Below, in pieces: positions 5,067 to 8,200 of a DNA stretch of 23,415 bases. The position numbers and the translations under genes were made by a program. The stretch covers positions 1 to 23,415 of the IMG/VR virus record IMGVR_UViG_3300037558_003026. The stretch is one strand, 5' to 3'. Numbering within the stretch: the stretch's first letter is position 1; each line of letters opens with the position of its first letter. The DNA is from a virus. The notes below the pieces were generated by a model. That model searched no databases. It was given only the letters and a program-made list of their open reading frames with translations, and was not told where the DNA came from.

Positions 5067-5501
5067 TCAGCGTTGCGGGAACAGGAAGGCGAAGGCGATG
5101 CGTCGCCGCCAGGACTGCGTGAGCGATTCCTCGATCACGCCCAGCCGCTCGTAGGCGTGGAGGAAGCTGTTGGGCGTGGTGACGATCCCCACATGCTTGG
5201 CGATGGCGCGCGGCTTCATCCGGAAGAGGACGAGCGCGCCGGGCCCGACCTCGGCGGGCGGCACCTCGATCATCATCCGGCGCGCGCCTTCCGCCAGCAC
5301 CTCGCGCGGACCCGTCTCGCCCCAGTCGCGGCTATAAGGCGGGATCGGGAATGGCTCGGGGCCGACGACCTCGCGCCACACGCCGCGTGCCAGCCCGAGG
5401 CAGTCACAACCGACACCGCGTAGGCTCGTCTGGTCGTGGTAGGGCGTCCCGAGCCACCCGCGCGCCGCAACGATGACCCGCTCCGGATCCGCGGGCGTCA
5501 C
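5067..5501 (-). CDS. NlpC/P60-family tail peptidase (GTA gp14-like)
   Basis: This 144-residue protein is a cysteine peptidase of the NlpC/P60 type found at phage tail tips, where it cleaves peptidoglycan cross-peptides during DNA entry. The fold-defining residues are visible: Cys34 in GCDCLGLARG, His103 in AKHVGIV and His115 in FLHAYERL, in the family's usual C-H-H order. The N-terminus AARGWLGTPYHDQTSLRGVGCDC matches the family start. The gene overlaps the DUF2163 stop by four bases (ATGA at 5501-5498), so it is probably translated by reinitiation. It lacks a signal peptide, as expected for a virion component. Length and neighbours agree with RcGTA gp14. Confidence 0.93.
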   Translation of the reverse strand: MTPADPERVIVAARGWLGTPYHDQTSLRGVGCDCLGLARGVWREVVGPEPFPIPPYSRDWGETGPREVLAEGARRMMIEVPPAEVGPGALVLFRMKPRAIAKHVGIVTTPNSFLHAYERLGVIEESLTQSWRRRIAFAFLFPQR

Positions 5502-6382
5502 AGCACGCCTCCGTCGTGGCCGCCGTCCTTCGTCGCGTAGCGCAGGATCGTGTCCTGGCCGGGGATGTGCGGGAAACCGCGGAAGTTGGCGGTGTTGGCG
5601 AACTTGGCGCCGCAGGTCTCAATCCGCTTGTCGCAGCCGGCGCGGATGGTGAAACCGTCGCCCTCGGCAATGGCGCGCACCGGCGCTTCGAGCAGGGTCA
5701 GGATCGCGATGCCGTCGGTCACGTCGTGGCCCAGCACTTCCGCGCGACGCCCGGCGTTCGCACCGCTGGACCACTCGATGGTGCCGAAGTTGAACCAGCC
5801 GGAGGTGAAGCCGCTGAGCCCCGAGGCGGTGAAGGCCCGATCCCGCAGCAGGTCGATCACGGCGCCCGCACCCTTGAAAGCGGGATCCTCGAGATCGACG
5901 CCGCAGCGCGCGTCACCTAGCACGGCATCGCAGGTCGCCTGGAAGGTCCGCCCGACCGTCTGACCGAGCACATGCGCGAGCGAACGCACCTCGGCGACGA
6001 AAGCCAAGCGCCCGCGCCGGATCTGGCCGATGGCGCCGCGCCGCATCAGCAGCCGCTGGCCCGTATCGGCCCAGTTCACGCGCCATACCTCGACCTCGGC
6101 GTTGTCCCAGCGGCCGTCGAGGATGTCGGTCTCGGTGATCCGGTCCGAGGTCAGCACGCCCTCGGCGTCCTGCGCATCGACCGACAGGTCCGAGCCCGAG
6201 CGGACCTCGGAGGCCGTGAGTCCGCTCTCTGGCTCGAAGTCCGTGCCATCGAAGCTCAGCGTCCGGTCGTGGTCGGTGAAGCCGAAGGTGACGCAGTCGG
6301 CGCGCGTGATCCGCCAGGACCAGGCGAGCGTCGTCGTGCCCTCGTCGAGATGGGCCTGCAGGGCGGGAGCGAGGGTCTTCAT
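5498..6382 (-). CDS. DUF2163 tail hub protein (GTA gp13-like)
   Basis: This 294-residue protein is of the DUF2163 / phage_BR0599 family, the tail hub that joins the tail tube to the tip fibre. The DUF2163 part includes LAWSWRITRADCVTFGFTDHD near the start and a C-terminal FRGFPHIPGQD motif typical of the family. Four cysteines stand out: Cys151 and Cys160 (TCDAVLGDARCGVD), and Cys250 and Cys257 (AGCDKRIETCGAKF). Related tail-tip hub proteins, such as lambda gpL, bind an iron-sulfur cluster, so these four may do so; this is inference. The start overlaps the stop of the spanin-like lipoprotein gene by four bases (6379-6382), and its own stop overlaps the peptidase start. The lysis cassette separates it from its usual upstream partner DUF2460. 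Confidence 0.92.
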   Translation of the reverse strand: MKTLAPALQAHLDEGTTTLAWSWRITRADCVTFGFTDHDRTLSFDGTDFEPESGLTASEVRSGSDLSVDAQDAEGVLTSDRITETDILDGRWDNAEVEVWRVNWADTGQRLLMRRGAIGQIRRGRLAFVAEVRSLAHVLGQTVGRTFQATCDAVLGDARCGVDLEDPAFKGAGAVIDLLRDRAFTASGLSGFTSGWFNFGTIEWSSGANAGRRAEVLGHDVTDGIAILTLLEAPVRAIAEGDGFTIRAGCDKRIETCGAKFANTANFRGFPHIPGQDTILRYATKDGGHDGGVL

Positions 6383-6621
6383 CGGCAGGTTCCCGTCATC
6401 CGGTCATCGAGATCGGCGATCCAGTCCGCCCAGTCCGGCGGAACCTCCGCGACGGTCTCGGCAGCCGGCCGGGCGAGCCTCGCCTCGGCATAGGAGGCAC
6501 AGCCCGCGTCACCAGTTCCCATCGTTGCGGCGCAGCCGGTCAGCAGGATCGCCAGCGCCGCGGCCATCGCGAACCGCGTCGCGCCCGCGTTCGACGCGCT
6601 TGCTCTTGTCTTCCATCGCAT
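6379..6621 (-). CDS. Rz1-like outer-membrane spanin lipoprotein
   Basis: This is an 80-residue predicted lipoprotein. After a basic N-terminus and a hydrophobic stretch (MAAALAILLTGC) it has a lipobox LTGC with Cys30 as the predicted lipidated residue. That leaves a mature part of about 51 residues with two further cysteines (Cys41, Cys79), which could form disulfides as o-spanins do. I chose the ATG at 6621 because GGGAGG lies nine bases upstream. Its first 113 bases lie inside the Rz-like gene in another frame, the nested arrangement known for Rz/Rz1, and its stop overlaps the DUF2163 start by four bases. No similarity to a named Rz1 can be claimed by eye; the call rests on the lipobox, size and nesting. 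Confidence 0.72.
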   Translation of the reverse strand: MRWKTRASASNAGATRFAMAAALAILLTGCAATMGTGDAGCASYAEARLARPAAETVAEVPPDWADWIADLDDRMTGTCR

Positions 6622-6739
6622 CGCGTTCGGCCTCCCGTTTGCCTTCGCGCTCCCCTTCCGCACGCCCCCAGACCCGGCCGAGGACGACACCTCCGACCGC
6701 GCCCAGAGCCGCGACCAGCCAGATCAGGAACTCAGCCAT
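6509..6739 (-). CDS. Rz-like inner-membrane spanin
   Basis: This 76-residue protein has one N-terminal membrane segment (MAEFLIWLVAALGAVGGVVL). A strongly charged, probably coiled-coil stretch follows (GRAEGEREGKREAERDAMED) and ends DGNW. That is the topology of an i-spanin: an inner-membrane anchor with a periplasmic coiled coil that meets the lipoprotein partner and fuses the two membranes in the last step of lysis. A GGGGAG motif lies just upstream of the ATG at 6739. The start overlaps the preceding 33-residue gene by eight bases, and the downstream half contains the start of the Rz1-like gene in a different frame. It is shorter than lambda Rz (153 residues). The function is inferred from topology and nesting. 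Confidence 0.7.
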   Translation of the reverse strand: MAEFLIWLVAALGAVGGVVLGRVWGRAEGEREGKREAERDAMEDKSKRVERGRDAVRDGRGAGDPADRLRRNDGNW

Positions 6740-6833
6740 CGTCCCGCTCCCCGTGCGCGGCGGCGACGCAGAGGGCGACGACGAAGACGCCGAGGAAGCC
6801 GCCCAGGACCAGACCTGCGAGGAACTCAAGCAT
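6732..6833 (-). CDS. 33-residue membrane microprotein, DUF3789-like
   Basis: This is a very short gene encoding MLEFLAGLVLGGFLGVFVVA followed by LCVAAAHGERDDG. It is a single membrane helix with glycines and a short charged tail. The size, the 'FLxGxxxGxxxGVFxxALCxAA' pattern and the charged end resemble the DUF3789 family of tiny phage membrane proteins. The ATG at 6833 overlaps the stop of the upstream membrane-protein gene by eight bases (ATGCTTGA). Its own stop overlaps the start of the Rz-like gene by eight bases (ATGGCTGA). This double overlap is the main reason to accept it as real rather than chance. A role in lysis timing is possible but not shown. Confidence 0.68.
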   Translation of the reverse strand: MLEFLAGLVLGGFLGVFVVALCVAAAHGERDDG

Positions 6834-7056
6834 CGCCGCGGAACCCGCGCTCGATCCGGTCGCGCAGGCCGATCAGGCCAAGCCCGAGGAACATGAGGCC
6901 AGCGGGAGAGGCGTCGCCGCTGCCGGCAAGGAGAGCAACGAGCCGGGACAGTTCGGCGAACGGGCCGGTAGCAGGCAGCGCCAGGGAAGCGATGCCGGTG
7001 AGCATGGCGAGCAGTCCCGCCCACCAGGTGAGCGAGTTGGGGCGAACGTACCGCAT
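6826..7056 (-). CDS. Small two-helix membrane protein, possible holin or antiholin
   Basis: This 76-residue protein has two hydrophobic segments: LTWWAGLLAMLTGIASLALP near the N-terminus and SPAGLMFLGLGLIGL near the C-terminus. They flank a small linker and are followed by a basic/acidic tail (RDRIERGFRGDA). It lies directly after the lysozyme gene (five bases between) and overlaps the next microprotein gene by eight bases. Its size, topology and place suit a class II holin, an antiholin or an accessory lysis membrane protein. I do not recognise a named family. Because a better holin candidate lies upstream of the lysozyme (7850-8200), the holin assignment is uncertain. Confidence 0.75.
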   Translation of the reverse strand: MRYVRPNSLTWWAGLLAMLTGIASLALPATGPFAELSRLVALLAGSGDASPAGLMFLGLGLIGLRDRIERGFRGDA

Positions 7057-7725: not shown

Positions 7726-7857
7726 TTACCTCAGAAGCGAGAGGATCAGGATCAGTGCCGCGATGGCGAGACCGATGCGCAGGCGATGGGTAAAGGCCTG
7801 CCGGGGGTCGGCCGGGTCGCAGCGGAGGGAGCGCGCGAGGCGGAGAAGGTCATTCAT
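7726..7857 (-). CDS. 43-residue single-pass membrane protein in lysis cassette
   Basis: The protein runs MNDLLRLARSLRCDPADPRQ, then AFTHRLRIGLAIAALILILSLLR. It has a charged N-terminal half and one C-terminal membrane helix ending almost at the stop. The ATG at 7857 overlaps the stop of the holin-like gene by eight bases (ATGAATGA), and its TAA lies just ahead of the lysozyme Shine-Dalgarno sequence. A longer in-frame reading from 7920 starts inside the holin gene and is unlikely. Small one-helix proteins in this position may tune holin function, but I recognise no family. Confidence 0.7.
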   Translation of the reverse strand: MNDLLRLARSLRCDPADPRQAFTHRLRIGLAIAALILILSLLR

Positions 7858-8200
7858 CGCCGCCGCCTTCGTTGGCGCGGCGGAGGCGGGCCAGCAGCAT
7901 TTCAATGAAGGCCGGACCAAAGACGCCGACGAGATAGGCGGCCGAGCCTGCCGCCCCGCCCGCAGGGATCGCCTCGGGCGGCAGACTCATCCAGCTCGTG
8001 ATCACGGCCATGGAGAGGCTGCCCATCCCGGCCGCGATCAGTCCGCCGAGCAGGATGTGCCGCAGCGCATCGCGCAGGCGCATCTTCGTGGTCAGCGCGT
8101 TCGTCGCCCCGCCGAGCGCGCCCCAGGCGGCGAGGATTACGGCGGTCGAGGCCGCAAGCTCGCGCAGCACGGCGGCAACGAAGCTGCCAGTGTCGTTCAT
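7850..8200 (-). CDS. Putative holin, three membrane segments
   Basis: This 116-residue protein has three predicted membrane segments: about 13-36 (ELAASTAVILAAWGALGG), about 45-71 (LRHILLGGLIAAGMGSLSMA) and about 80-106 (AAYLVGVFGPAFIEMLLARL), with a charged C-terminal tail (RRANEGGGDE). The layout, including a polar loop between helices 1 and 2 and an AYLVGVF motif near the C-terminus, resembles the phage holin class typified by the P2-like/Phage_holin_3 families. Holins form inner-membrane holes that release the lysozyme encoded two genes downstream. The start overlaps the DUF2460 stop by four bases and the stop overlaps the next gene by eight. Family membership is inferred from pattern only. 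Confidence 0.8.
   Translation of the reverse strand: MNDTGSFVAAVLRELAASTAVILAAWGALGGATNALTTKMRLRDALRHILLGGLIAAGMGSLSMAVITSWMSLPPEAIPAGGAAGSAAYLVGVFGPAFIEMLLARLRRANEGGGDE

Follow-up and report, generated by a model that had tools for sequence, protein, structure and literature searches.

In the P2 LysB/LysC class of spanins, as described in a spanin survey (PMC6139136), the gene of the o-spanin lipoprotein starts inside the i-spanin gene in another frame and ends beyond it, the pair being located after the endolysin. According to that survey (Kongari et al. 2018, PMC6139136), known pairs have a combined periplasmic length of 62-300 residues and nearly all contain cysteine, the commonest combination being 0 + 2, which is also that of T4 PseT.3/PseT.2. 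Comparison of T5 with Shivani and phiR201 in this source further reveals an overlapped pair split by a homing-type endonuclease, of the GIY-YIG type, with an o-spanin that keeps its signal sequence. As for lysis timing, a study of F1 mycobacteriophages (PMC13056207) reports that it is set jointly by LysF1a, a 2-TM protein, and LysF1b, a 1-TM protein, the two genes overlapping. In P2, according to the record annotation, a gene with an effect on the timing of lysis, lysA, is found between the endolysin and the spanins.

We analyzed a virus record of 23,415 bases (the window) that carries a cassette on its minus strand between the tail genes dit and hub, in the order dit, tm116, tm43, GH24 endolysin, hol76, d33, rz, rz1, baseplate hub and NlpC/P60 gene (Table 1). 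Its rz/rz1 spanins belong to a known kind; what is modestly new is a DUF3789-like micro-gene, d33, tied to one holin-like gene, hol76. The rz/rz1 pair has the layout of the P2 LysB/LysC class, but sits between dit and hub. Phage RcOceanus, with a hub protein 66% identical to that of the window, has dit directly next to hub and carries no lysis genes at this point, which gives the cassette the appearance of having been inserted at the dit/hub joint. The hosts named for relative loci are mostly Rhodobacteraceae and their relatives. No protein match to hol76, d33 or rz was found in 50,697 phage records, where rz1 had one weak partial match (E 0.8), and the cassette DNA matched none of these records nor any of 72,556 plasmid records. 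The cassette would thus be a prophage lysis cassette without a DNA match among phage-collection records, and our best explanation, which taken as a whole we judge somewhat better than even, is that a prophage family of the Rhodobacterales type uses it for lysis.

Table 1. Positions of the cassette genes and related features in the window
Feature	Position	Strand	Remarks
dit, distal tail gene (DUF2460)	8829-8197	-	cassette located between this gene and hub
tm116, 116 aa, three hydrophobic segments, candidate holin	7850..8200	-	charge pattern compatible with N-out/C-in
tm43, 43 aa, one C-terminal hydrophobic segment	7726..7857	-	kept in relatives
GH24-type endolysin, 219 aa	7062..7721	-	PF00959 E 4.6e-23; phrog_7 endolysin
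hol76, 76 aa, two-TM holin-like	6826..7056	-	two membrane helices predicted; dN/dS 0.10
d33, 33-aa single-TM micro-protein, DUF3789 match	6732..6833	-	PF12664 25.2 bits; dN/dS 0.31
rz, 76 aa, i-spanin-like: N-terminal TM, then charged helix	6509..6739	-	phrog_1026 E 4.3e-5
rz1, 80 aa, o-spanin-like lipoprotein	6379..6621	-	LLTGC lipobox, mature part 51 aa; start inside rz, other frame
GGGAGG, Shine-Dalgarno-like site for rz1	6631..6636	-	9 nt upstream of rz1 ATG
baseplate hub gene, directly after cassette	5498..6382	-	TIGR02218 E 1.1e-87; 4-nt overlap with rz1

In the lysis cascade that we propose, a holin (tm116 and/or hol76) would open the inner membrane first, the GH24 endolysin, in which no hydrophobic signal or TM segment was found, would then cut the wall, and rz in the inner membrane and rz1 as an outer-membrane lipoprotein would join both membranes, removing the outer barrier. 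The d33 product is a genuine single-TM peptide under selection of its own; its translation is probably coupled to that of hol76 via the ATGNNTGA overlap, and it would most likely reside with hol76 in the inner membrane and tune the start of lysis as an antiholin or co-holin. The charges flanking its hydrophobic segment point to neither orientation. This cascade, with a d33 that tunes timing together with hol76 and independently of the spanins, appears to us probable on balance. The cassette genes and the tail operon are on one strand, so that gene neighbourhood by itself is no proof of a function in lysis; genes, frames, conservation and modularity are what the sequences themselves display. 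A role of d33 in lysis timing, considered separately, falls slightly short of an even call. We infer it from the coupling of a 1-TM micro-protein to a 2-TM protein in a lysis cassette and from the F1 precedent. There, too, a 2-TM N-in/C-in protein is followed by an overlapping 1-TM gene (PMC13056207); the two systems are likened by layout and not by sequence, and LysF1b, of 124 aa, includes a charged cytoplasmic domain, whereas d33 has 33 aa and is almost only a membrane segment.

To follow the cassette in relatives, 232 loci were collected. Removal of L155, the locus of the window itself, of 83 duplicates and of 21 incomplete loci left 127 distinct cassettes, with close relatives of the query sequences over-represented. 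Among the 96 of these that have d33, rz and rz1, 87 show exactly 33, 76 and 80 codons and are called canonical.

The original prediction that d33 is DUF3789-like is supported by a score above the Pfam gathering cut-off (25.2 against 22 bits, match residues 1-26). PF12664 also matches 21 of 25 diverse relatives of d33 at E<=0.01, and M1, E3, G7, G11, G12, C22 and A25 are invariant in these 25. To our knowledge the DUF3789 family has no known function, and the name 'DUF3789' was not found in a search of 5.39 million papers, which leaves room for work elsewhere. DUF3789 proteins are known from Firmicutes elements, in hosts without an outer membrane. Such an origin, together with the optional and scattered presence of d33 across cassettes, would suit a membrane peptide that has no lysis role (acting, for example, in superinfection exclusion or on the host membrane) and merely rides in the late operon, a role that the Firmicutes DUF3789 proteins would share. 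We regard this as a serious minority possibility, against which stands the constant association of d33 with hol76. A search of 394 genomes of one bacterial family with PF12664 only, hence blind to hol76, gave 18 places in 15 genomes, all of them directly after hol76 in the cassette, including one that lacks rz/rz1 (L250), and the 8-nt hol76/d33 overlap is present in 86 of the 87 canonical relatives. This search is not very sensitive, because the cut-off is missed by many d33 genes already known; it was exceeded in only 3 of the 15 matching genomes, most relatives lying near or below it. In 385 genomes of the class, one of 6 PF12664 places was in a cassette, and in 398 genomes of the phylum, 5 of 11; the remaining 5 and 6 places had no cassette genes nearby, and 7 of these 11 were stretches within open frames of 242-748 aa.

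If d33 does tune lysis with hol76, a more general reading is conceivable, namely that DUF3789-type micro-proteins form a new class of holin partners: single-TM proteins of 30-odd residues, translationally coupled to a conserved two-TM holin-like protein, that would set lysis time and behave as plug-in modules gained or lost through repeated ATGNNTGA stop/start joints with the flanking frames intact. In this full form the proposal is speculative, and we think it rather unlikely to hold throughout. Relatives that differ in the micro-gene and are otherwise alike can serve as natural controls when the function of DUF3789 is first put to the test.

The spanin identity of rz and rz1, also part of the original prediction, is well supported at the sequence level. 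The rz protein matches the Rz-like spanin family phrog_1026, and its hydrophobic segment 2-20 is a single N-terminal TM segment; an AlphaFold2 model (mean pLDDT 74) gives a helix 2-60 starting from the membrane segment and a short helix 65-74. A six-frame lipoprotein scan of the window found no lipoprotein ORF besides rz1, and the two genes share a cassette with a GH24 endolysin. Across 117 rz/rz1 pairs, the rz1 lipobox is present in 116 (115 strict, 1 relaxed; the exception is L061), the +2 residue is other than Asp, in keeping with outer-membrane sorting, in 116, and the mature length is 51 aa in 113; two extra cysteines occur in rz1 in 115 pairs and none in rz in 109, which is the combination of T4 PseT.3/PseT.2 (Kongari et al. 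2018, PMC6139136). The 113-nt overlap, found in 87/87 canonical relatives, agrees with the spanin gene arrangement.

It is conceivable that the pair is some other envelope pair and not a spanin, given that rz is short, that its PHROG match is modest and that its flanking charges do not favour C-out. We consider this quite unlikely, as the periplasmic parts (about 54 + 51, hence ~105 residues combined) fall within the 62-300 range of the survey (Kongari et al. 2018, PMC6139136), and as the cysteine pattern, the overlap, the lipobox, the slot after the endolysin and replacement by a non-homologous pair all fit a spanin. The charge argument carries no information on rz, because lambda Rz and P2 LysB show an identical bias with respect to N-in/C-out, and the positive-inside rule was dropped as a topology test. 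For the cassette proteins, membrane topology and assembly into complexes are inferred. Synonymous resampling of the rz/rz1 overlap retained the lipobox in 1.7% of simulated rows against 83/87 observed, a figure that is not usable as a probability, since shared ancestry also keeps codons alike and diversity in the overlap is only somewhat reduced: synonymous diversity relative to expectation was 0.43 in the overlap, 0.52-0.57 in non-overlapping hol76, rz and rz1, and 0.40 in d33 alone.

Two natural experiments, as read from gene content, support rz/rz1 being an overlapped two-component spanin. In L138, L220 and L227 the slot is occupied by another rz/rz1 pair of the same overlapping layout with no similarity detected to that of the window; the replacement rz of L138 also matches phrog_1026. 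In three other cassettes (L050, L060 and L065) an HNH endonuclease gene lies between rz and rz1, with a PF13392 match in L050. In these split loci rz1 has acquired a new start within the 3' end of the HNH gene, out of frame with it, and again has a signal peptide and lipobox; in L050 the new start overlaps the HNH gene by 41 nt. This resembles the T5/Shivani case of the survey (PMC6139136), in which the enzyme is GIY-YIG; here it is HNH, and it is found in four relatives and not in the window. The inserted gene occupies L050:5117-5701, and the fourth case, L288, was seen only as a similarity hit. Among relatives without rz/rz1, nine (L231 and eight that carry d33) had no lipoprotein ORF within stretches of 2-8 kb and may therefore lack spanins. 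In the diverged relatives L304, L305 and L307 (and L231), hol76 abuts hub with neither micro-gene nor spanin pair between.

The place of d33 between the holin-like protein and the spanin, described as fixed in the original prediction, proved variable. Besides the 96 of the 127 cassettes with all three genes, 18 have rz/rz1 without d33, 3 an HNH-split rz/rz1 without d33, 3 another spanin pair without d33, 6 d33 without rz/rz1 (two of them, L221 and L222, assigned by eye from translation) and 1 nothing between hol76 and hub. The micro-gene is thus missing from 25/127 and lacks rz/rz1 in 6/127, and its only constant neighbour is hol76. In one of the 18 cassettes with rz/rz1 but no d33, an unrelated 62-aa ORF takes the micro-gene's place after hol76 (L212:3231-3419). 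A more even draw was made from 390 genomes of the order, which contained 46 hol76 places in 34 genomes; four weak matches (21.6-31 bits, away from cassette genes) were dropped. The resulting 42 cassettes comprised 23 with d33 and rz/rz1, 7 with d33 alone, 4 with rz/rz1 alone, 1 with rz/rz1 plus HNH, 1 in which rz1 is accompanied by no recognised rz, 3 with another pair and 3 with neither. When present (30/42), d33 was always right after hol76. If every cassette with an rz1 is taken to have a spanin pair, d33 against spanins gives the table 23, 7, 9 and 3 (Fisher p = 1.0), and independence was likewise found in the 127 cassettes (Fisher p = 1.0).

That d33 is instead a third spanin part, or a helper of rz/rz1 in outer-membrane disruption, might be suggested by its 8-nt overlap with rz and by the GGGGAG that its last codons carry before the rz start; it is very improbable, and was rejected on the counts of the even draw, in which d33 occurs without a spanin pair in 7/42 cassettes and is absent from 9 of the 32 that have one. 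Being kept or lost independently of the spanins, d33 is better seen as an optional accessory of hol76: from its distribution, it belongs with hol76, and neither needs the spanins nor is needed for them. On a tree of endolysin and hol76, d33 required at least 16 state changes and rz/rz1 at least 4; the tree took in 123 of the 127 cassettes, 4 without a usable endolysin being left out, and recombination may inflate the d33 figure. Since d33 is often lost while the rest stays, it is not needed for lysis. In 18 of 21 cassettes that have rz but no d33, an 8-nt overlap likewise joins hol76 to rz, so that the module could be dropped or added with the frames undisturbed. The d33 and rz starts are alike over 26 nt (identity 0.59, against 0.30 at other offsets), a likeness that may reflect the shared joint only, rather than a d33 copied from the rz TM segment. 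By gene content, micro-gene and spanins are both optional: the endolysin and the holin-like gene stay constant, while the outer-membrane module and the micro-protein are each gained or lost without regard to the other.

The reading frames themselves are as first proposed in most respects. The 33-residue membrane gene overlaps each neighbour by 8 nt (hol76 stop 6826 and d33 start 6833; d33 stop 6732 and rz start 6739), and the start of the lipoprotein gene, preceded by its own GGGAGG, falls within the Rz-like gene in a different frame. The description of three nested genes applies only to the start of rz1, which lies 113 nt ahead of the rz stop; d33 does no more than overlap the genes on either side, and rz1 exits rz, ending 130 nt beyond its stop, so that the spanin layout is 'overlapped' and not 'embedded'. 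Starts and frames are conserved: in the 87 canonical relatives the rz overlap is 8 nt in 83 and the rz1 overlap 113 nt in all, and the other 9 of the 96 depart through frameshifts, read-through or minor changes in length. For 87 rows that differ by >3%, window included, dN/dS was 0.10 for hol76. It was 0.31 both for d33 and for the part of rz outside the overlap, and 0.26 for the corresponding part of rz1, against 1.2-2.2 for the same DNA in shifted frames. On this evidence d33, rz and rz1 are all real genes; although short ORFs are frequent in GC-rich DNA, and although some length is non-canonical in those 9 of 96 relatives and the d33 start of one (L013) is broken, a chance open frame of 33 aa is scarcely credible given the in-frame dN/dS of d33 (shifted frames 1.2 and 2.2) and its codon-position entropy of 0.34/0.20/0.64.

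Which protein acts as holin bears on the role of d33. Profile searches gave no convincing family match for hol76, which is unusually conserved for a holin; its designation as holin is for these reasons itself a guess. With its three hydrophobic segments, tm116, which matches only PHROG families without assigned function, is by sequence an equal candidate, and could be the sole holin. Outside the phage cassette, weak relatives of hol76 occur as well, at 33-41% identity, in L301, L303 and L302 (L302:3291-3485), the last adjoining genes that, recognised by eye, resemble groES/groEL.
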